Positions 638-31,158 of a DNA stretch of 35,316 bases are shown in pieces. A model generated the notes under the pieces. It did no database searches. It saw only the letters and a program-made list of their open reading frames with translations, and was not told where the DNA came from. The position numbers and the translations under genes were made by a program. Origin of the DNA: a virus; IMG/VR virus record IMGVR_UViG_3300021057_000027, positions 1 through 35,316 of that record. One strand, given 5' to 3'. How positions within the stretch are numbered: the first letter of the stretch is position 1; each line of letters begins with the position of its first letter.

Positions 638-1393
638 TTATGAACCGATAGCAATGATGCTTTCTAGATAAGAGAATCCGGGGCCGCCAGATTTCATATG
701 TTTAAGCTGAATTGTGACGTCGTAATTTGTGCCATTTGATAACCCCGAAACATCAATTGTAAAAGTGACATACTCAGGTGTTACGCGATCTTCGGAGCCG
801 CTAACGTTCCCGCTCTGTCCGCCAATATCAACCTTCAAATTGGCTTTGTCATCAGCGTCACCGGTATTATTGTTTTGCCAGATTTTGGCGTGGATGGTTA
901 CTGTGCTGACGGTAGAAATCTTTGTCCATTTAAAAACCGGGATGACTGTTTCATAGCTTGAACTGTTGGTTGACATTCCCCAAAAAGCGTATTCGTTACC
1001 TGTGCTAGGCACGAGGCCAGTTCCCTTATATATAGTTCGAACGCCCGCTGCCAGCGTGAACGAAAATAAAACATTGCTAAAAGCTCCCTGTGTAAAATCT
1101 TTCCAAGATGCTGAAGCTCGCCCGTAAAACTTTTGCTCATCAGAACGATAAAAAACCATCCCTTCAGGAGGCGATCCGGGAAAAGAAGATCCGTTTCTAA
1201 TAACGCCGCTATCAGCCAAACACACGGCAAGCCTAGTTTTAAGATCAGTGGCGCTTCCAGCAACATCTGTTCCTAATTCAGTTTCGATAGCGTTAACTTC
1301 TTCTTGAAGGTCGTTGATATGCGATGCATCAACAAGATCAACTTTGTTCGTTTTGCTTGTAAAGGTTTTAATTGCTCCCGGATATTGAACCAT
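638..1393 (-). CDS. Putative tail fibre / receptor-binding structural protein (251 aa)
   Basis: ATG at 1393 preceded by GGAGAAACAAC. Residues about 1-50 are helical (VDASHINDLQEEVNAIETEL), resembling the trimerising start of phage fibre proteins. Residues about 60-95 contain a short 'PEGMVFYRSDEQKFYGR' module like those placed before fibre heads. Residues 105-251 are beta-rich, with alternating Thr/Ser/Val and few charges, as in a jelly-roll receptor-binding or carbohydrate-binding tip. It lies after the hub-like gene, where siphovirus fibre and tip proteins are normally encoded. The host-recognition role is inferred from position and composition only. Confidence 0.55.
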   Translation of the reverse strand: MVQYPGAIKTFTSKTNKVDLVDASHINDLQEEVNAIETELGTDVAGSATDLKTRLAVCLADSGVIRNGSSFPGSPPEGMVFYRSDEQKFYGRASASWKDFTQGAFSNVLFSFTLAAGVRTIYKGTGLVPSTGNEYAFWGMSTNSSSYETVIPVFKWTKISTVSTVTIHAKIWQNNNTGDADDKANLKVDIGGQSGNVSGSEDRVTPEYVTFTIDVSGLSNGTNYDVTIQLKHMKSGGPGFSYLESIIAIGS

Positions 1394-8375: not shown

Positions 8376-8922
8376 ATCGTTTATAGAGTTCGATGATTTT
8401 CCACGCCTCGGCCCGCAACTTATCCGGCTTATAAATAATCTCGTCTGAAACGGCTGTGTTAACCTGTGCGATGTGTTCGATGTAATCAGCAAACACAAGC
8501 ATCTCACAAGCACTTTTTAAATCTTCGGGTATTGTTGAATACCCGGCACTGTAGACAACCTTAATATTCTGCCTTCCCCTTGTGAAAGTAAGACCGTCTA
8601 AAACAATCTTCCCTTCATTCGCATAAATCATATAATCACTCGAACTTATTTGAGAAGATGCGCCATATGAACGATCTGGATCATCAAAAAGAGAAGTGAC
8701 GCTGACAATAGGAAACTGCCTTAAAAGAAGAGTATCCGTACCGTCACCGTCATAAAGCGAGTTCTCGTCATTTGAGTTGTAAGTTGTCTGTTCGAAGTCA
8801 CGACCACAAAACACTTTGATTTGCTTTTCCTTTTGAGTAATAAGGTTTCCAAGCAAAGTATCGTGTGTCGATAACGTCATATTGAAGTTTGTTTTTATGC
8901 TTGCTACGGTTGTAAATGGCAT
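8368..8922 (-). CDS. Head-tail connector, gp6-like (184 aa)
   Basis: The helical start 'FTTVASIKTNFNMTLSTHDT', followed by 'LITQKEKQIKVFCGRDFEQT', matches the phage gp6/gp15-type connector (DNA-packaging adaptor). A beta insertion comes next ('YDGDGTDTLLLRQFPIVSVT', 'VVYSAGYSTIPEDLKSACEM') and then the usual C-terminal helices. 'AGYSTIPEDLKSACE' is a particularly common motif in these proteins. The adaptor ring binds under the portal after DNA packaging. It overlaps the gp10-like gene and abuts the small membrane gene (TAATG). Confidence 0.85.
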   Translation of the reverse strand: MPFTTVASIKTNFNMTLSTHDTLLGNLITQKEKQIKVFCGRDFEQTTYNSNDENSLYDGDGTDTLLLRQFPIVSVTSLFDDPDRSYGASSQISSSDYMIYANEGKIVLDGLTFTRGRQNIKVVYSAGYSTIPEDLKSACEMLVFADYIEHIAQVNTAVSDEIIYKPDKLRAEAWKIIELYKRYA

Positions 8923-9179
8923 TAAGGAACCGTCCTTTTTAACAAGGCCTTGAATTCAGCCATGTCCTGTAACATATAGTCAATCTTTATTCCCATTGCC
9001 TTAATCTCTGCAATCTTAACGCGATCATCATTTATCATTTCGATGATCGCGCTGTCTCGCTTTATCGATTCATCATTAATGGTTTCTAACTTGTAAAAAC
9101 CATATGATGCTATTGGTACAACAACGACCGTGACGATCTTTACAAAAATATCGATGTATTTTTGAACGGTTCTTGTCAT
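8922..9179 (-). CDS. Small single-pass membrane protein (85 aa)
   Basis: ATG at 9179 has AGGAA six bases upstream. A GTG one codon earlier is possible. The sequence starts MTRTVQKYIDIFVKIVTVVV, with a hydrophobic helix at about residues 11-30, then a charged helical tail predicting a coiled coil (ESIKRDSAIIEMINDDRVKI). It ends KALLKRTVP. Such proteins are common in phages and may be holin-like or superinfection-related, but nothing decides between these. It is unusual to find it among connector genes. It belongs to the inserted envelope-type block at 8.9-14.7 kb. Confidence 0.6.
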   Translation of the reverse strand: MTRTVQKYIDIFVKIVTVVVVPIASYGFYKLETINDESIKRDSAIIEMINDDRVKIAEIKAMGIKIDYMLQDMAEFKALLKRTVP

Positions 9180-9188
9180 CACAGATTC

Positions 9189-9428
9189 CTATTCGCTTAA
9201 ACAACTTCCTACGGCCTGAGCTGCCTCTATTTCAGCCTCAACTTCTTCTAGTTCTGTTTGAGCGCCAGCAATGCGAGCCTCAATCGAAGCCTTCCTCTGA
9301 AACGTCTCATTGCAATTAACGACAATCTCCTGCTGCTTTGCGTATGATTCATCCGTAACTTTTTCAACGGTTTGAGCAAAAGCAGAAGTCGTTATAAACA
9401 GAGTCAAAATCGTAATTAATTTTTTCAT
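9189..9428 (-). CDS. Small secreted coiled-coil protein with signal peptide (79 aa)
   Basis: AAGGAGG precedes ATG at 9428. Residues 1-19 (MKKLITILTLFITTSAFAQ) are a textbook Sec signal peptide with an AFA-Q cleavage site, giving a mature periplasmic protein of about 60 residues. It is acidic and helical (AGAQTELEEVEAEIEAAQAV), with two cysteines (NCNE and SCLSE) that could form a disulfide. It lies directly after the large signal-peptide repeat protein and may be its partner. I recognise no family. No lipobox cysteine is at the cleavage site. Confidence 0.65.
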   Translation of the reverse strand: MKKLITILTLFITTSAFAQTVEKVTDESYAKQQEIVVNCNETFQRKASIEARIAGAQTELEEVEAEIEAAQAVGSCLSE

Positions 9429-9437
9429 ACATCCTCC

Positions 9438-11336
9438 TTACGTACAGTTACCACCACCATCAATTTGAATGTAGTTTGTTCCGTTACAAATACATAACTC
9501 ACTCATTGAGTCATCGTAATACAGTGTTCCCTCTACTGCTGTTGCACATGATGGATCAGGTGTATCAGTAGGCGTCATCATTAACGTCTTTTTATTTGCG
9601 ATGTGAAGCTGTGCCATTGGCCCTGTTGTACCGACACCGATATACCCACCGTCACTCAAGAACGTCATAGAGTTTGTCTTTGATCCAAAGGCAGCCGATC
9701 CCGTGTCGATACGGAATTGGTCGTTTCCAGCCGCACGATAATAAATGTCAACTCCACGAGCATTTGTTTCATCCAACAAAAATCCAGCCAGGCCGACATC
9801 ATTTGTGGAGGTTTGGATAGTAACAACTGCGTTATCATCAGCGTCATTTACTCCTCGAATAGCTAAATCCGTCGGAGCGCTGTTTGTGCCGATGCCAACG
9901 TTACCGTTGGAATCAACATAAATACCCTCTGTCCCGCCATCACCTGACAATCTTTGACCATTCAAATTGACTATCCCATTAAACTTTGTTGTTCCATTAA
10001 CTTCTAACAAAGCCACGGGTGCATTGGTTCCAACTCCAACATTTCCACTTGAGTTAATACTAAAATAATCATTGGTTCCAAGTGTTCCTCCTGAAGAAAT
10101 GATGAAGTTGTCATTGTTGCTGTCATCCATCCCAAGAATCCATTTATCGGTGTTGTCTGTGCGCAACTTAATGTAGGCGTCACGGGTCGATGAAGCCGAC
10201 GTTGTATCTGAATCGACGATTAACCCAGCTTCGTTGTTTGTCGAGGAAATGGTCACAGTTTTTGCCCCTGTGGCACCTCCAAATGTTGCTCCATTTGTTG
10301 ATGTAAGGGAAATAACAGATAACGCACCTGCCCCAGTTAACCGCATTGTTTCTGACGGAGTTGTTGCAGCACTCGCCGTGGTGTACCAAACAAAATCTGT
10401 TTGAAGAGATGATGCTGTATGGTTACCACCAGCTACAGCAGAGAATGTCGCTGCTGCTGATCCAGGAGCTGTCAAGTTTGTATCATTTGAACGGAAGGAA
10501 ATCCCACCGATCAAATCTCCTGTTACGATGGCTGCTCGGCTACTACGTAAACCAAGTTGCTCGCCGCTGTTTGCTGTAACAGATGTAGTAGGTACAACTA
10601 AAGGCATTGTCGGATCAGTTATCCCAATACCGACTCTACCTGAAGAATCGATGCTAAGTCGGACGTTGGCTTCGTTTGATATATCAAAACTATTTGGATT
10701 AGCTTTAGATGCAATAGACCATGTATCCCCTGAGTCATCACCATCATCTGCGTCTAACGTCAAAGCAGCATCGAGCCCTTCAGACCCCTGCACTTCTAAC
10801 AAAGATTCGGCTGTAGACATCCCTCCAATAGCAATGTTGCCAGTACTATCAATACGCATACGTTCTAGTACTGCACCACTGGCGTTTGAGGTTGTATTTT
10901 TGGTCATAAACAGCAGTGAGCCACCCTTGTTATTCACTCCGTGATTAGTCGTAGCTATCGCTCGAATTACAGCAGCAGCGTCTGACGTAGACACAGAATC
11001 GTCAGCATCAAAACGAACTTCACCTAAGACTTCGTTTGCAGTTGTTGCGGTGTCTTCTCTCAATAACGTCATAATACCTGCCGTAGCCGATCCGATATGT
11101 AGCTGTGCAATTGGAGAAGTGGTTCCAATCCCAACATTTCCATTGTCATCAATGACAACATTTGTACTGTTCTGAACCGTTCTTCCACCGGTTCCGTCAA
11201 ATCGAACAATTCCGTTATCGGTTGATGATGCCGGCCCCTGAAAACCGCTCACATCAACGCCGCCAACACGAATTTCGGCCAAAACCGGTGAGGCCGAAGC
11301 CAAGATCATCAATAGGAGAGTTAAAAACCTTTTCAT
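9438..11336 (-). CDS. Large secreted fibre-like repeat protein, GIGT repeats (632 aa)
   Basis: GGAGG precedes ATG at 11336. Residues 1-20 are a Sec signal peptide ending VLA-E. The mature part carries six spaced copies of a motif 'G-N-V/I-G-I/V-G-T-x-x-P-x-A-x-L-x-I', at about residues 67-81, 166-182, 233-242, 431-446, 478-490 and 564-579. Between them lie beta-rich, Ser/Thr/Asn/Asp-rich segments. Such repeats occur in tail-fibre-like and adhesin-like proteins, often before an S74 chaperone domain. None is visible here. The C-terminus (about 590-632) has four cysteines (SCATAVEGTLYYDD, ELCICNGTNY, NCT). The signal peptide in a head-tail operon is odd, because virion fibres normally assemble in the cytoplasm. 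A surface-displayed adhesin or decoy is as likely as a virion part. Confidence 0.7.
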   Translation of the reverse strand: MKRFLTLLLMILASASPVLAEIRVGGVDVSGFQGPASSTDNGIVRFDGTGGRTVQNSTNVVIDDNGNVGIGTTSPIAQLHIGSATAGIMTLLREDTATTANEVLGEVRFDADDSVSTSDAAAVIRAIATTNHGVNNKGGSLLFMTKNTTSNASGAVLERMRIDSTGNIAIGGMSTAESLLEVQGSEGLDAALTLDADDGDDSGDTWSIASKANPNSFDISNEANVRLSIDSSGRVGIGITDPTMPLVVPTTSVTANSGEQLGLRSSRAAIVTGDLIGGISFRSNDTNLTAPGSAAATFSAVAGGNHTASSLQTDFVWYTTASAATTPSETMRLTGAGALSVISLTSTNGATFGGATGAKTVTISSTNNEAGLIVDSDTTSASSTRDAYIKLRTDNTDKWILGMDDSNNDNFIISSGGTLGTNDYFSINSSGNVGVGTNAPVALLEVNGTTKFNGIVNLNGQRLSGDGGTEGIYVDSNGNVGIGTNSAPTDLAIRGVNDADDNAVVTIQTSTNDVGLAGFLLDETNARGVDIYYRAAGNDQFRIDTGSAAFGSKTNSMTFLSDGGYIGVGTTGPMAQLHIANKKTLMMTPTDTPDPSCATAVEGTLYYDDSMSELCICNGTNYIQIDGGGNCT

Positions 11337-11358
11337 CAGTTGCCTCCGAATAATATTT

Positions 11359-11871
11359 TTAGTTTAAAGTTTCGGCCATAACTGTTACGTAAACCGTCCC
11401 AGTTGCATTTGCGTTTGTAACAGTAATATTTAATTCATCGCCATCTTCTAAGATGATTCCACCCTCTGGAAGATAGAAAAGATCTTGCTGAGAAGTTAAC
11501 CCCTGGCTTACTAACAAGGTGTCGTATGTAGCATTTGTTAAACTATCCAAATAAATCTTCACTGTTTCAGTAATAGCCACGCTGGCATGAACAAAGATCG
11601 CCCGAACCCTGACCTTATCTGAGAAGTTTGTGGTGTAGTTCATGGCTGCGGAGGATAAATTTTGAGAAGATTCTTTTCTTGATACAGTTACTGAAGTTGA
11701 GCTTGTAACCAAGTATCCGGAGGAATTGACCTTCACCGGCACAATACTTGATCCGCTGTAACCATAGATCACTTGCGAACCTGCGACGTTTGCGTCGGTT
11801 TCTGTTTTTGCATACGAGTTGCCCACTAAAGCGAGCAATAGGAAAACCAAAATCGATACTTTCTTAAACAT
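11359..11871 (-). CDS. Secreted beta-rich protein with signal peptide (170 aa)
   Basis: GGAGGGTTGTT precedes ATG at 11871. Residues 1-21 (MFKKVSILVFLLLALVGNSY) form a signal peptide, with cleavage near SYA-K. The mature protein is beta-rich and low in charge, with 'VIYGYSGSSIVPVKVNSSGY', 'VRVRAIFVHASVAITETVKI' and 'LEDGDELNITVTNANATGTV'. This pattern resembles small beta-sandwich or jelly-roll proteins of phage surface parts. It has no cysteine. It is the first of three consecutive signal-peptide genes and overlaps the end of the GT4 gene, so it may be co-expressed with the glycosyltransferases. Its target is unknown. Confidence 0.65.
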   Translation of the reverse strand: MFKKVSILVFLLLALVGNSYAKTETDANVAGSQVIYGYSGSSIVPVKVNSSGYLVTSSTSVTVSRKESSQNLSSAAMNYTTNFSDKVRVRAIFVHASVAITETVKIYLDSLTNATYDTLLVSQGLTSQQDLFYLPEGGIILEDGDELNITVTNANATGTVYVTVMAETLN

Positions 11872-12979
11872 AACAACCCTCCATTTTCTTTGCCTTGACG
11901 TCTTGTATGATTTGATAAAATCTTTGTGCTGATTGTTTCCATGTAAATTTATTTAAAATTCGTGAACTTGCCTTTTGACCCTTTTTTAACGCCACTGAAT
12001 AATTCGACATAACCATCAACATCTTTCTCAGTAGGTCGTTAACATCGGGACAATACCCTTCTGCGATCATTTCATAATTTAAAAGCTGTTGGCTTACGAC
12101 TTTGTAATTGATCTCATATCCAACGGAATCATCGAAATAATCTCGGCATCCAGTAACCGGCGTTGCAATGGATGGAATACCCGTTGCCATTGCTTCGCAT
12201 AAGGTAAGACCCCATCCTTCGCCGAATGTGGGGAATAAAAAGCAATGTGAAGACTCATAAAGGTTGATCAACTCAGGCAAAGGAAGCCTTCGCGAATCCC
12301 AAACAACATTGTTGTGCTTACCTAATACGATAACTTTGTCCGCATTATCTGGATTCTTTGCACGTTTAAGCATTTCCTTATATTGAGCGTGATTTTCTTG
12401 CCGCAATTTTCGACGATTCTTCCAAAGCTTAGGCACATATTCTTTGCGGTTTAACTTTGGCGTTGTGGTCTTCATGTAAATTTCAACATGAGGGTTATTT
12501 TCAAGAACCTTCAAAACTTCAATTACAAGCTGATATCCTTTGCGTGGATTTGGCGCGCCAACCCAAAGGAATCGGAATTTTTCTCCCATATTTACGCGAG
12601 GAAGCGATCTCTGCTTAAACTTATAAATGTTTTCATCAACCCCTTCGTGGCAAACATATATCGGCCCATTAAAAGCGGGTGAAAATAAGTCCCGGCAAAA
12701 AGAACAGGGAACAACTAAGACATCCGCCCGATTAATGCGCTGTATATATTTATTTGGAAGCTCTAAGAACTCCCACATTGTGAAGAGAACGTTGAGTTTG
12801 CCGGGAACTGGAACGAAAAGGTCGGCGGGACAAATACTGACGGCAATATCTGCATCGTCAGAATATTCAAAATATTCTTCACAAAACTTCTTCATTGAAG
12901 AATTATGATGATTGTATCCTAGAGCGTTTCCAACAATGTCATGCTCTCTGGTTGTCCACTGGACTTTAATTTTTTGCAT
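11864..12979 (-). CDS. GT4-type glycosyltransferase (GT-B fold, 371 aa)
   Basis: The ATG at 12979 (MQKIKVQWTTREHDIVGNAL) is preferred to a start 24 codons earlier, which lies wholly inside the upstream small gene. The C-terminal half carries the family 4 signature: 'VGAPNPRKGYQLVIEVL' (nucleotide-sugar lobe), a 'LPLPELINLYESSHCFLFPT' segment, then 'GEGWGLTLCEAMATGIPSIA' with the E-x7-E pair. It lacks a signal peptide or membrane helix, so it works in the cytosol on a nucleotide sugar. The acceptor could be a surface glycan or a virion protein. It is the last of three transferase genes between the capsid and connector genes, each overlapping its neighbour. Confidence 0.85.
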   Translation of the reverse strand: MQKIKVQWTTREHDIVGNALGYNHHNSSMKKFCEEYFEYSDDADIAVSICPADLFVPVPGKLNVLFTMWEFLELPNKYIQRINRADVLVVPCSFCRDLFSPAFNGPIYVCHEGVDENIYKFKQRSLPRVNMGEKFRFLWVGAPNPRKGYQLVIEVLKVLENNPHVEIYMKTTTPKLNRKEYVPKLWKNRRKLRQENHAQYKEMLKRAKNPDNADKVIVLGKHNNVVWDSRRLPLPELINLYESSHCFLFPTFGEGWGLTLCEAMATGIPSIATPVTGCRDYFDDSVGYEINYKVVSQQLLNYEMIAEGYCPDVNDLLRKMLMVMSNYSVALKKGQKASSRILNKFTWKQSAQRFYQIIQDVKAKKMEGCYV

Positions 12980-13157
12980 TCTTTTTAGTTCCGGATTTCT
13001 TTTGCTCTGCAATCTGATCTTGTTCCTTCTGTTCTTCGCCTTCCTCTCCAACGTATTCCAGCCGAACGTTGCTGATTAAACAGCTTCGGTCTGTTTTAGT
13101 CGGAAACTTTAAAATCTCTTTCGACAAAGGATTTTTATATAAATAATTTTTGATCAT
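12966..13157 (-). CDS. Small charged protein within the glycosyltransferase cluster (63 aa)
   Basis: GGAGGCCGTCA before the ATG at 13157 is a good ribosome site. Both ends overlap neighbouring transferase genes (23 and 14 bases). The N-terminal half (MIKNYLYKNPLSKEILKFPT) is compact, with one cysteine. The C-terminal half is low-complexity Glu/Gln/Lys (EEGEEQKEQDQIAEQKKS), probably disordered. No family is recognised. Its position between two transferases suggests an accessory or carrier role for that group, but this is guesswork. Confidence 0.6.
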   Translation of the reverse strand: MIKNYLYKNPLSKEILKFPTKTDRSCLISNVRLEYVGEEGEEQKEQDQIAEQKKSGTKKNAKN

Positions 13158-14028
13158 TGACGGCCTCCATCATTAATCTTTCAATTGTTCCCCAGAAAAG
13201 CGAAGGTCGATTTAGCAAGTATCTTTCCATCTCTGCGACTGATCCCTCGAACCACTCTTCGCCCTTTTGTTGAATGTTATCGTTTGAAATAAGCTTGCAT
13301 CCTGCCAGCTTTGCCTCAATCGCTAAACGCGGACAAGAATCTCCGCCCTTTGGCATCATCACAACACCTTCGCATCGGCCAAGCTCTTGAAGTAATTGGT
13401 CGTACTTCAGATTTGAGACTATCCTCTTTGTAAGACCATTCTTCTCACAATAAGAAACAGAATCCTCCACACCTTTAATCCATGAAGATGAATCAACAAT
13501 TAACCACCCGGAGCGTTCATTGCTCTGTTCTCTAATATCTTTGATTTTTTGAATGTCTTTTGGATCAAATACAGAGGAAAGAATGATATTGTTGGCCTCT
13601 GTTAACGTGATAAACCTCTCAAGATACAAATCTCTTTGCTGCGCGCTCATCCAAAAAACGACGGCCGCATTCTTATAAAAGTTCGCAATCTCTTTTCCGA
13701 AGTATCTGTGACAATCGCAATCTGCGGATTCCATCGCCCTATGAAGTTCGATTGACCGATAAATACAAAATTTATAGTCGTATTCGATCACGGCATAATT
13801 TAAGTTTTCGATTACGTCCTTTAAGTACAGATATTTAAATTGGGTAAAGTTGCCGAAAACCCAAAAACTATCTTTATTGCTGAGGATAAAATCTCTTGTT
13901 ACTTCAATGGCTTTAACCTTATGAACAGTCATCGAAGCGGCATTGATCAGAGCTTCGCTTGTTAGTTCAGCTCCTCCCAAAATTTCATCTGCGAAAAAGT
14001 CCGCGACAAAGATAATCTCTTTACGCAT
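13135..14028 (-). CDS. GT-B type glycosyltransferase, divergent (297 aa)
   Basis: The ATG at 14028 (MRKEIIFVADFFADEILGGA) overlaps the end of the GT2 gene by 8 bases. The first part has the 'GGAE' loop typical of the N-terminal Rossmann lobe of GT4-like enzymes. The C-terminal lobe has 'RSGWLIVDSSSWIKGVEDSV' and 'GVVMMPKGGDSCPRLAIEAK'. The last segment is where the E-x7-E pair would be, but the first acidic residue is replaced (D-S-C-P), so only the second Glu is clear. The enzyme may be active with altered donor geometry or may be degenerate. The cytosolic substrate is unknown. It probably acts with the GT2 and GT4 on either side. Confidence 0.7.
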   Translation of the reverse strand: MRKEIIFVADFFADEILGGAELTSEALINAASMTVHKVKAIEVTRDFILSNKDSFWVFGNFTQFKYLYLKDVIENLNYAVIEYDYKFCIYRSIELHRAMESADCDCHRYFGKEIANFYKNAAVVFWMSAQQRDLYLERFITLTEANNIILSSVFDPKDIQKIKDIREQSNERSGWLIVDSSSWIKGVEDSVSYCEKNGLTKRIVSNLKYDQLLQELGRCEGVVMMPKGGDSCPRLAIEAKLAGCKLISNDNIQQKGEEWFEGSVAEMERYLLNRPSLFWGTIERLMMEAVNDQKLFI

Positions 14029-14665
14029 TCTGAAGTACCATTTCCTTGATAACGTTCTGACCGTATTGATTAACCTGCTTTTGCCATGCCGATCTTTCAT
14101 GTCCGTATCGGAAGTAATAAACTGGCTTATCAAAATATTTAAATCTAGCCCCACTCTTTGCGGCCCTCAGCCACAAGTTCCAATCAGCAGCCGGATCAAT
14201 TCTGTAACCACCTAAATCATCAAAAAGCTTTCTTCTAATAAAACTTCCGTGAGGCAAATAATTATTTTCGTGTAGCATTTCAGGGGTTACGCTCTCAAAA
14301 TGCCCCCACGATCCACCGCTTGTTAGATAAACTGGAAAATGGATAACATCAGCGTTATCTGCGAACCGATGCTTTCTCATCAAACTCAAAAGGTGTCGTA
14401 AATTTACCAGTGAAAAATAATCGTCATCACAAAATGAACAAACCCAGTCACCCGTTGTTTGAGCGATTACGTGATTAAATCCTTCGACGATTGTCCTTTC
14501 CTTACCATCACTAAGAATCTTTACGTGATTGCTTACGGTTTTACTGGCCCGACTATCGCCATCGAGATAAACAAGGATTTCGTCAAAATCCATCGCTGTT
14601 TCGATGCATTTGTCGAGCCATTCCTCAACCGGATTTTTAGAATTAATTGCGAGACTGATTTTCAT
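14021..14665 (-). CDS. GT2-type glycosyltransferase (GT-A fold, 214 aa)
   Basis: The start MKISLAINSKNPVEEWLDKC is followed by the GT-A elements: 'DEILVYLDGDSRASKTVSN', a donor-binding 'GFNHVIAQTTGDWVCSFCDD' and the acidic 'DDDY' metal motif near residue 80. Downstream are 'GSFIRRKLFDDLGGYR' and 'DWNLWLRAAKSGARF', typical of GT2 enzymes. At 214 residues it is a minimal catalytic domain with no membrane helix. It begins just after the terminator hairpin of the capsid gene. No clear Shine-Dalgarno sequence lies before its ATG, so its expression may be low or depend on read-through. The sugar and acceptor are unknown. Confidence 0.85.
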   Translation of the reverse strand: MKISLAINSKNPVEEWLDKCIETAMDFDEILVYLDGDSRASKTVSNHVKILSDGKERTIVEGFNHVIAQTTGDWVCSFCDDDYFSLVNLRHLLSLMRKHRFADNADVIHFPVYLTSGGSWGHFESVTPEMLHENNYLPHGSFIRRKLFDDLGGYRIDPAADWNLWLRAAKSGARFKYFDKPVYYFRYGHERSAWQKQVNQYGQNVIKEMVLQNA

Positions 14666-14678
14666 GTTGTTTTAAGAA

Positions 14679-14702
14679 AGCGGGGAGGGTTTCCTCCCCG
14701 CT
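14679..14702 (-). terminator. Intrinsic terminator after the capsid gene
   Basis: A perfect 10-bp G+C-rich stem (AGCGGGGAGG / CCTCCCCGCT) with a 4-base loop sits 20 bases past the capsid stop on the minus strand. It is followed by TTTCTT, a short T-rich tract. It probably reduces rather than abolishes read-through into the glycosyltransferase genes. Confidence 0.75.
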
Positions 14703-14721: not shown

Positions 14722-16002
14722 CTAGGCCGCGGTTACCAATCGGCAGAACGCATTAGCTTGAGCAATGTTCAAGCCCCATGCGGTCACCATGCGGAACCGT
14801 GTTTCGTTGTAATCGAAACGGCCGTATGGATCGACATCGATTCTCATAGATCCGATTCGGCGTCCGATGTAGAAATACTTAAAGTTTCCTACAACAACGA
14901 AAGCTGTACTTGCGCCAGTTGAACTTGGGCCTTTAGATGAAGTGATGTAAGGCACTTCCCAAACGGTTCCAGGTGTGATAGCGCCCGGATCATTAAGGAT
15001 GTAACGATTGTTGCTGTCCTTAACATCTCGGAGGAATCGCTTGATTGATTTATTGAAAATCATCGTTAAGTTGTAATCCAACCCGGCGGGAATTAAGGAA
15101 ATCATCTCGTTGATGTTTCCAAAACTGATGGAGCTGAAGTTTGACAATCCAGTTGCCATAACGACGGACTTTCCAGCGGCTGCTGTTAAGACACCAGAAA
15201 CAGGGCTTCCGGTACCGTTTAGGACTTGATTATCAAGTTCGAGAAGGGTTCCATAAGAGAATTGCTCTGTTAAAAGCGAAACAACGTCAATAGCGCTGTC
15301 TCTTAACAATTGATTTGTGGCTATTGCATAGCCGGTTAAATCTTTCGTTGTCAAAGTAACTTGACCGAAAGTAGGCTCGCCTTGTGTCATTTGAGCGGCT
15401 TCAGCAACCCAGTTGACAGATGCAAGGGTCAACTCTGTAGGCAGCTTCAAAGTGTCAGATGACATAGGGACAACCGTACACTGATTTAAAGCGAATGTAC
15501 GATCGCGACCGATGTCAACGATATCAAAGGCGAATTCGTCAGGAACTAAATATCCGCCTTCGGCGTTTGTTCCAGCGTCCATCGTGGCTTTGGCTGCATA
15601 ATTCTTATAAAACTCGTGCAAGTCTTGTTTTGCTTGCATATCTTGTAAAGCTGATGCTTTCATGACGTCGATCATGAACTTGCTGAACTCGTTAACTGAT
15701 TCTTCGTTGTTCAGTGTCCGTAAAGTGGACATCTTTCCACGAATCGATTGACCCTGATGATTGAGGTTATAGCCTTTATATTTATTCGATCCTACAATTG
15801 CGGGAGCGCCTACTCGTTTAACGGGTAAAGACTCTAACTTCGCTAATTTTTCTTTGATTTCTTCAAGCTGCTTTTGGCTTGCGGAAAGCTCATCTTGAGA
15901 TTTCTTTAACTGCTCGCCGAAAGATGATTTGACAGCTTCCAATCCTTCATTGATTGATTTCTGAAGGGTCTCTTGCATCTTCAAAAGTTGTTCTTTTTCC
16001 AT
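14722..16002 (-). CDS. Major capsid protein, HK97 family (426 aa)
   Basis: ATG at 16002 preceded by AAAGGATCGACAAC. Residues about 1-110 are a charged coiled-coil delta/scaffold region (KKSQDELSASQKQLEEIKEK) that the upstream protease should remove. From about 130 the HK97 capsid fold is recognisable: 'ATMDAGTNAEGGYLVPDEFA', 'LPTELTLASVNWVAEAAQMT', 'LTGYAIATNQLLRDSAIDVV' and a terminal 'RFRMVTAWGLNIAQANAFCR'. The length is typical for a capsid that carries its own scaffold. Gene order portal-protease-capsid confirms the call. A terminator follows, fitting high expression of this gene alone. Confidence 0.95.
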   Translation of the reverse strand: MEKEQLLKMQETLQKSINEGLEAVKSSFGEQLKKSQDELSASQKQLEEIKEKLAKLESLPVKRVGAPAIVGSNKYKGYNLNHQGQSIRGKMSTLRTLNNEESVNEFSKFMIDVMKASALQDMQAKQDLHEFYKNYAAKATMDAGTNAEGGYLVPDEFAFDIVDIGRDRTFALNQCTVVPMSSDTLKLPTELTLASVNWVAEAAQMTQGEPTFGQVTLTTKDLTGYAIATNQLLRDSAIDVVSLLTEQFSYGTLLELDNQVLNGTGSPVSGVLTAAAGKSVVMATGLSNFSSISFGNINEMISLIPAGLDYNLTMIFNKSIKRFLRDVKDSNNRYILNDPGAITPGTVWEVPYITSSKGPSSTGASTAFVVVGNFKYFYIGRRIGSMRIDVDPYGRFDYNETRFRMVTAWGLNIAQANAFCRLVTAA

Positions 16003-20657: not shown

Positions 20658-20861
20658 TCAATGCCGATTTTTTGATATGTCAATAACTTTTTTTAATCGG
20701 ATTTCGAATACTTGGTTTCTTCGCCTAATTTCCACCACTCCACCACTCTCGACGACATAATCGAGATGATTCTTTACGTTTTTGGCGAACATACTGTAAG
20801 CAATTGGAGCGGGATTATCAAAATCTATCACGGGTCTTTGAACTCTCCTAGATGGGACCAT
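20658..20861 (-). CDS. Small protein of unknown function (67 aa)
   Basis: The ATG at 20861 has GGGAGGT about 11 bases upstream and overlaps the GT2 gene by 34 bases. The gene ends just before the terminator. The body 'MFAKNVKNHLDYVVESGGVV' followed by 'EIRRRNQVFEIRLKKV' reads like a small alpha-beta fold and is vaguely similar to Phd-type antitoxin N-termini. No toxin gene is beside it. I cannot assign a function. Confidence 0.5.
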   Translation of the reverse strand: MVPSRRVQRPVIDFDNPAPIAYSMFAKNVKNHLDYVVESGGVVEIRRRNQVFEIRLKKVIDISKNRH

Positions 20862-21481
20862 CGTCTTTTGAAGACCTCCCTGTCTTGTTCAACATAAGAA
20901 TTTTTGTTGGAAACGTGAATTTGATCTGGAACGTAAGGGTGAAAAACTTCAGCCTTTTCGCAAACCTTAACGCGGCCGCCGGCTTCAATAACTCTTAAAG
21001 ACAAGTCCGGATCAGCGTAGTAACACTTATAACTTGGATCGAATAAATAGCCGACTCCGATTCTTTCAACCAACGATCTCTTGAGAAACGGAAAAGGCGA
21101 AAACGTCTTTCCGTAATAATGAAATGGAGAATACGGCGAAACTAATGGTGAGAGTATGGTGTCATCCTCAAGCTGCCTGACCATCTCATCAAGCCATCCA
21201 CGGTAAAAACGGCATTCGTCAGATATCGTCATTACGATATCGCCGCTTGAGTTGCGGTATCCAGCGTTTACGGCCTCGACAACGCCCGATCTTGGCATGA
21301 CTATTAATTTCGTTATTCTTGATAAACAATCAATATCATCTCCAAAATCCACTTCAGGAGCTGTTACAAGAATAGTCTCAAGATCAACAAAACTTGATGA
21401 CATCACAAGAATGTTGCAGATACACTCAACAGCATTGCGAGGTCTTAGGCTCGGAAGGATTATTGACAGCCTCAACTTCAT
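20828..21481 (-). CDS. GT2-type glycosyltransferase (217 aa)
   Basis: It starts 'MKLRLSIILPSLRPRNAVEC', the usual GT2 opening strand. 'LIVMPRSGVVEAVNAGYRNS' follows, then 'GDIVMTISDECRFYRGWLDE', where the metal-binding motif is reduced to D-E-C. 'YYADPDLSLRVIEAGGRVKV' carries the later catalytic Asp region. There is no membrane helix. This is a second glycosyltransferase locus, in the early or accessory operon rather than the late operon. The donor and acceptor are unknown. The unusual acidic motif may mean altered donor binding. Confidence 0.8.
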   Translation of the reverse strand: MKLRLSIILPSLRPRNAVECICNILVMSSSFVDLETILVTAPEVDFGDDIDCLSRITKLIVMPRSGVVEAVNAGYRNSSGDIVMTISDECRFYRGWLDEMVRQLEDDTILSPLVSPYSPFHYYGKTFSPFPFLKRSLVERIGVGYLFDPSYKCYYADPDLSLRVIEAGGRVKVCEKAEVFHPYVPDQIHVSNKNSYVEQDREVFKRRWSHLGEFKDP

Positions 21482-30615: not shown

Positions 30616-31158
30616 TTAGTTTTTAGTGTATTTGGCGTAATATTTTTGCGTGACAACCGGAAGGCTTTCGAAAGAGGCTCCGTTTCGATACCATTTAACA
30701 ACCCTACCGATCCCCCAGTTGTAAGCCGCCAAGCGATGCAATACCGTATCGTTAATTTTGTAAGCTCTAAAATATGCCGGAATTTTGACGTTGTAATACC
30801 ACTTCGCAACCTTCAAACACGTTTCATCATCAAGCATTTGTTCGATATCATATTGCTCATGTGGATGGTCTTGATTCCAATCAGCCAATGCCCCACCTGT
30901 GATTTGCCAGCAACCGCGGGCGTGTTCAAAATTCCCATATTTATGTTTGCATCCGCTGGATTCGATCATTGCGATTTTGTCCATGTCAATCTCAAACGCT
31001 TCTGCGCTGGATGAAAGAATCGTCCATGACACTATTAAGAGAAGCGTTACAACAAGCCCGATGATCAGGTTCGATAGAATGAACTTCTTTACCTTTGCCG
31101 GTTTTAATATTGGGAAATGCTTTCTCAGTTCTTTTTTATACTCATGGTCAAACAACAT
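30616..31158 (-). CDS. Membrane-anchored lytic transglycosylase (SLT-like, 180 aa)
   Basis: AAGGAGG lies six bases before the ATG at 31158. Residues about 26-49 (FILSNLIIGLVVTLLLIVSW) are a membrane helix or signal anchor, followed by SSSAEAFE. The soluble domain has the transglycosylase pattern: 'MDKIAMIESSGCKHKYGNFE' with catalytic Glu about 66, 'GCWQIT', and 'LAAYNWGIGRVVKWYRNGAS'. It would cut peptidoglycan in the periplasm. It lies in the early region, away from the holin-like genes, suggesting a role at entry, pilus-like assembly or regulated lysis. The position is unusual for an endolysin. Confidence 0.8.
   Translation of the reverse strand: MLFDHEYKKELRKHFPILKPAKVKKFILSNLIIGLVVTLLLIVSWTILSSSAEAFEIDMDKIAMIESSGCKHKYGNFEHARGCWQITGGALADWNQDHPHEQYDIEQMLDDETCLKVAKWYYNVKIPAYFRAYKINDTVLHRLAAYNWGIGRVVKWYRNGASFESLPVVTQKYYAKYTKN

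Follow-up and report, generated by a model that had tools for sequence, protein, structure and literature searches.

A candidate cassette of Sec-exported fibre-type proteins in the late structural operon of a temperate siphophage

Introduction

The fibres of tailed phages are understood as being made and assembled in the cytoplasm. Three consecutive genes inside a phage morphogenesis operon, all of them with predicted Sec signal peptides and one encoding a fibre-like protein of 632 aa, raise the question of what such proteins might do outside the cytoplasm and whether they belong to the virion. The presence of such cassettes in a clade of uncultured phages would imply either a phage-made late surface adhesin or receptor-masking system, or virion completion outside the cytoplasm.

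The genes are located in a 35.3-kb virus (IMG/VR record IMGVR_UViG_3300021057_000027), and the whole stretch of 35,316 nucleotides is referred to here as the window. Its minus strand carries an HK97-type siphophage gene set comprising terminase, portal/MuF, protease, HK97-type capsid, glycosyltransferases, head-tail adaptor, neck, tube, tape measure, Dit and tail proteins. Since integrase and HTH regulator genes are present on the plus strand, the gene content points to a temperate siphophage.

Results

Gene organization

The position inside the morphogenesis operon, as described in the first-pass annotation, was confirmed: terminase, portal, protease and capsid genes lie upstream of the three genes, and adaptor, neck, tube, tape measure and Dit genes downstream. 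The ORFs encode proteins of 170, 632 and 79 aa (SP170, 11359..11871; FIB632, 9438..11336; SP79, 9189..9428; all on the minus strand) and are preceded by good ribosome-binding sites. An 86-aa ORF (TM86, 8922..9182, minus strand) is the last gene of the run, which corrects the original count of three. Together, the four genes fill the interval between a GT4 glycosyltransferase gene (13051-11864) and the head-tail adaptor gene (8922-8368, minus strand; phrog_442, E 2.5e-20), the first core gene past the cassette.

On the other side of GT4 (11864..13051, minus strand; Pfam Glycos_transf_1, E 1e-13) the glycosyltransferase block continues with a 339-aa protein (13135..14154, minus strand), which has no family match and by BLAST resembles the ORFs that occupy this position in relatives, and with a family-2 glycosyltransferase (14021..14665, minus strand; PF00535, E 4e-6). 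The block is followed by the gene of the major capsid protein with HK97 fold (14722..16002, minus strand; Pfam Phage_capsid, E 4e-48), which served as query for finding relatives. A further family-2 glycosyltransferase is encoded near the terminase genes (20828-21481).

Signal peptides

Signal peptides were called with a rule-based Sec/SPase I caller, later with a cut-off of 3.6, in all window ORFs of at least 60 aa. Above this cut-off, the caller selected SP170, FIB632 and SP79 alone, in agreement with the initial proposal of Sec signal peptides on three consecutive proteins. Lower scores were obtained for TM86 (3.08; judged to be a transmembrane segment) and for an ORF at the end of the window (2.38). 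The predicted N-termini and cleavage sites are MFKKVSILVFLLLALVGNSYA|K for SP170, MKRFLTLLLMILASASPVLA|E for FIB632 and MKKLITILTLFITTSAFA|Q for SP79, and they display the n-, h- and c-regions and the AxA-like sites of Sec signal peptides. When the three sequences were shuffled, 12, 3 and 22 of 5000 versions, respectively, passed the caller. Among the genes of related contigs, none of 502 core genes was positive, compared with 30 of 275 unlabelled genes past the glycosyltransferase and 9 of 643 elsewhere.

The signal is more diverged than the mature part of these proteins and is still a signal peptide. SP170 and its homologue in contig L003 share 5 of 21 residues in the signal and 92 of 149 in the mature part; in a four-cysteine family, 6-8 of 20-21 signal residues are shared versus 26-36 of 68-69 mature ones. 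Cysteine density is not higher in exported proteins (0.95 per 100 aa) than in their non-exported neighbours from the same slot (1.01). Cysteine enrichment was significant versus core genes only and was discarded as proof of oxidative folding.

FIB632 resembles phage tail fibres and secreted MAT fibres

FIB632 consists of a predicted Sec signal peptide (residues 1-20), a shaft of the trimeric-fibre type with GIGT capping loops, and a C-terminal tip. The GIGT repeats noticed at first reading are real: the capping-loop motif recurs at residues 68, 235, 433 and 566, and GIGT occurs a fifth time, at 481. A family search of the repeat region had been proposed against adhesin, tail-fibre and S74 families. 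Tail fibres were matched (PHROG 9942, E 1.2e-29; PHROG 18345, E 2e-17), and so was an adhesin among PDB sequences, the Bdellovibrio MAT fibre Bd2133 (8ond, E 6e-5, over the loop regions of Bd2133). An S74 domain gave no Pfam match in FIB632; the C-terminus is a small tip which contains all four cysteines of the protein (597, 615, 617 and 631). With PHROG 9942, FIB632 thus shares the family sequence but differs by its predicted export signal. As an AlphaFold model of FIB632 alone was unusable (pLDDT 37), the shaft was assigned by sequence only.

The N-terminal domain by which MAT fibres are defined (Bdello_MAT_N, NCBIfam NF053851) had no match in FIB632 at E 0.01, so that FIB632 is best classified as MAT-like and not as MAT. 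A chromosomal protein (L152) matches NF053851 at 1e-8, which is below the curated cut-off. Nor does FIB632 appear to be the main tail fibre of the phage, which encodes a separate, ordinary tail-end fibre or receptor-binding-type protein after Dit and a tail protein (638..1393, minus strand). The caller finds no signal peptide in the latter, and its N-terminus is related to a tail-end protein of contig L043 (iE 4e-4).

The small proteins of the cassette

SP170 is composed of a predicted Sec signal peptide (residues 1-21), a short N-terminal module (KTETD..GSQVIYGY.GS) and a beta jelly-roll domain. Its model (pLDDT 68) is a beta sandwich like the jelly rolls of viruses and phages, and a full-length homologue in L003 is 57% identical and has a signal peptide; a search against PDB sequences gave no match. 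SP79 combines a predicted Sec signal peptide (residues 1-18) with a short coiled coil containing two cysteines, and the family search gave no match above the cut-off. The small coiled-coil protein of contig L012 was considered as kin of SP79 and rejected, because the sequences do not align. TM86 is made up of a transmembrane segment and a coiled coil, shows no convincing family match, and may be an anchor or a holin/spanin-like protein. By predicted signals and domains, the earlier picture of an exported fibre-like protein with a small beta protein, here a jelly roll, and a coiled-coil partner is retained. PADLOC returned only weak matches and no named system.

The exported module is recurrent among related phages

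Relatives were gathered via the capsid protein and via GT4 from IMG/VR contigs, which are fragmentary and metagenomic. They share the gene order portal, protease, capsid, variable genes, GT4, adaptor, neck and tube. The closest set consists of 25 contigs whose GT4 scores above 500 bits to that of the window. In 15 of them, one to three signal-peptide genes follow GT4 or the adaptor, neck or tube gene, two of these contigs (L041 and L046) having been judged by eye from the sequence; ten have none. Cassette presence requires five changes on the GT4 tree, at least two of them on well-supported branches. As at least 15 relatives carry similar predicted exported proteins and about ten equally close ones carry none, the module is recurrent yet dispensable.

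The exported slot proteins of relatives have binding-type folds (LamG, right-handed beta helix, GIGT fibres and jelly rolls), and slot proteins without signal peptide also occur (449 aa and 121 aa in L054). Searches by tblastn with SP170, FIB632 and exported proteins of two relatives (L056 and L026) yielded no match in 50,697 phage records, and a scan of viral contigs with FIB632 found none. The only high-identity relative in a bacterial genome is a locus of a Deltaproteobacteria MAG (L018), which is devoid of the cassette; in G283, only the capsid gene is related, and more distantly. In the phylum to which this MAG belongs, GIGT fibre proteins with signal peptides are common on the chromosomes (loci L143-L159) and were found at 10 of 20 loci.

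Modules and export signals are exchanged

The first approximately 35 post-signal residues of SP170 and its L003 homologue are common to a protein of L052, in which the C-terminal domain is swapped. Another post-signal module, with four cysteines, is common to proteins of L025, L040 and L057, the remainders of which diverge. In L003, the SP170 homologue and a GIGT fibre are placed together after the tube gene, so that the two seem to travel jointly.

The SP170 jelly-roll domain was also detected without signal peptide. It directly follows the capsid gene in another phage locus (L139), and in L140, as judged from reading the sequence, it stands alone as a 110-aa ORF that immediately precedes a tailspike gene. 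This tailspike (10381-12449 of L140; PHROG 2234) carries a Sec signal peptide and ends a phage-like structural run; the locus is from the phylum of the MAG mentioned above. In L009, a slot protein (10373-12052) has a type IV prepilin-like N-terminus (GFTLMELL; MTHKKGFTLMELL) in place of a Sec signal, and its distal domain is common to an exported Sec-type protein of L026. The contrasts between signal-less and exported jelly rolls and between prepilin and Sec N-termini suggest that export itself is under selection.

The cassette is coupled to the structural genes

GT4 and SP170 overlap by 8 bases, the gaps within the cassette measure 22, 9 and 6 bases, and TM86 and the adaptor gene overlap by one base. 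The genes of relatives are equally coupled, often by ATGA overlaps. In a consensus scan, nothing resembling a promoter was seen immediately ahead of the cassette, the weak minus-strand matches being located inside genes, nor was a terminator seen between the cassette and the adaptor gene. Because the genes abut or overlap and are not set apart by such signals, the cassette should be co-expressed late with the virion proteins and not autonomously in the lysogen. Between the capsid and the first glycosyltransferase genes (14679-14702), a perfect 10-bp G+C-rich hairpin with T-rich sequence on both flanks is a terminator or attenuator candidate, which may modulate read-through.

The adjacent enzymes had been suggested to add sugars to the exported proteins. 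GT4 is retained in at least ten close relatives without cassette, in which it abuts the adaptor gene. Since it is present with or without the cassette, GT4 is not there to serve the cassette proteins, and this suggestion was abandoned. A GT4 gene between capsid and head-tail adaptor genes is kept in dozens of phage contigs (L003-L110). Virion proteins or the host surface are the probable targets of glycosylation by this conserved enzyme. Between capsid and GT4, L003 encodes a protein (9178-10092) whose CxxxCxYC motif resembles that of radical SAM enzymes; in the window, other glycosyltransferase-type genes occupy this place.

Discussion

The explanation we favour, and hold to be somewhat better than even, is that the three genes form an accessory, late-expressed cassette of Sec-exported proteins of fibre or adhesin type, which would be used on the surface of the infected cell and in the lysate for occupying receptors or for adhesion to a matrix. 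The host Sec system would export and cleave SP170, FIB632 and SP79 late in infection. FIB632, putatively a beta-helical fibre of trimeric type that shares its architecture with phage tail fibres and secreted MAT fibres, would trimerize in the periplasm or outside the cell and bind glycans of the cell surface or matrix. The exported coiled coil of SP79 might serve as anchor or companion of the fibre, and TM86 could be a partner in the membrane; an anchor to the outer surface was not identified. Occupied receptors could lead to superinfection exclusion or keep released progeny off debris, a masking role that we infer, or the fibre might mediate matrix adhesion. Lysis would spread the exported proteins.

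Several known systems resemble parts of the cassette. MAT fibres of Bdellovibrio bacteriovorus are described as surface-displayed proteins in which a signal peptide and a conserved N-terminal domain are combined with a trimeric shaft of phage type and with tips that are exchanged; one of them binds prey glycans (PMC10769870). FIB632 shares with them the signal peptide, a tail-fibre-like beta-helical shaft with glycine-rich capping loops, and the sequence match to Bd2133, and where MAT fibres have a variable tip it has its own four-cysteine tip. In contrast to MAT fibres, it is encoded by a phage in a late structural operon, lacks the beta-rich N-terminal domain of approximately 130 aa, and has an exported jelly-roll protein and an exported coiled coil as neighbours. 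The cassette also connects, in a concrete case, the fibre loci of phages with bacterial secreted MAT-type fibres. The shaft repeats are also common to the PHROG 9942 and 18345 families, which are annotated as virion tail fibres, whereas FIB632 adds a Sec signal peptide and is located at the head-connector junction.

PblA and PblB of Streptococcus prophages are tail-fibre-like proteins of phage structural modules found on, or released to, bacterial surfaces, and the pneumococcal PblB is predicted to carry a signal peptide; in S. mitis, the protein is a tail component and is released after permeabilization by the phage (PMC4508584). They are likened to the cassette here by description and differ from it in their Gram-positive hosts and in being single genes, not swapped cassettes beside a glycosyltransferase. 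The fOg44 endolysin uses the host Sec system late in infection (PMC6116005), but is a lytic enzyme and not a protein of fibre or adhesin type. A search of the open-licence literature for exported fibre cassettes in phage structural operons did not find this pattern, which is a weak sign of novelty.

An alternative that we rate as rather unlikely is that the proteins are virion appendages maturing outside the cytoplasm, with fibres being secreted, folded with disulphides in the periplasm, and docked when lysis mixes the compartments. For P22 and T4, it is a classical finding that tailspikes and fibres can be added to particles in vitro, and the slot falls between capsid and connector genes. Contigs L043 and L050 are without the cassette and encode a tail-end protein of 115-126 aa ahead of a non-exported fibre; in L006 and L046, 114-aa homologues of it without signals precede an exported one. 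Exported fibres can therefore adjoin virion-type partners, which keeps this hypothesis alive, and it gains further from the signal-less jelly roll directly after the L139 capsid gene and from the signal-peptide tailspike closing the structural run of L140. On the other hand, many close relatives do without the cassette, so that the particle does not require it; the window phage possesses a tail-end fibre of conventional type, and we know of no precedent for Sec-exported virion parts of tailed phages. The more general proposition that some tailed phages complete their particles outside the cytoplasm, with fibres, jelly-roll decorations and even tailspikes secreted by Sec, folded in the periplasm and docked at lysis, we consider decidedly unlikely.

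The first-pass annotation had offered a lysogenic-conversion module or a captured host adhesin locus, and a captured locus carried as cargo that alters the lysogen surface would combine the two. The integrase and regulator genes are compatible with it, cellular signal-peptide GIGT proteins are common in the phylum of the MAG (10 of 20 loci), and PblB and lambda Lom provide precedents. A moron unit has its own promoter and terminator, however, and consensus scans gave neither a promoter immediately ahead of the cassette nor a terminator separating it from the adaptor gene; its genes overlap or abut their neighbours, which speaks against a conversion unit. With respect to capture, kinship to exported bacterial adhesins is upheld by the MAT match and the GIGT proteins of the phylum, whereas a recent capture is not indicated by the GC content of 0.41-0.45 versus 0.42 for the window, and many different cassettes reuse the slot. 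We regard this explanation as unlikely; an exchange of fibres between phages and bacteria, in either direction, is plausible.

That the N-termini are hydrophobic segments of ordinary virion fibres assembled in the cytoplasm is very unlikely. Virions are, it is true, the typical place of fibre and jelly-roll domains, and some homologous domains lack a signal; yet the full n/h/c architecture with AxA-type sites was found for 30 slot genes and for none of the 502 core genes, and the related L009 protein bears a prepilin-type signal instead of the Sec type.

Apart from the cassette, the window encodes a membrane-anchored, lytic-transglycosylase-like protein (30616-31158) with a weak SLT match just under the Pfam cut-off, the gene of which is located near the regulator region and not among the late genes.
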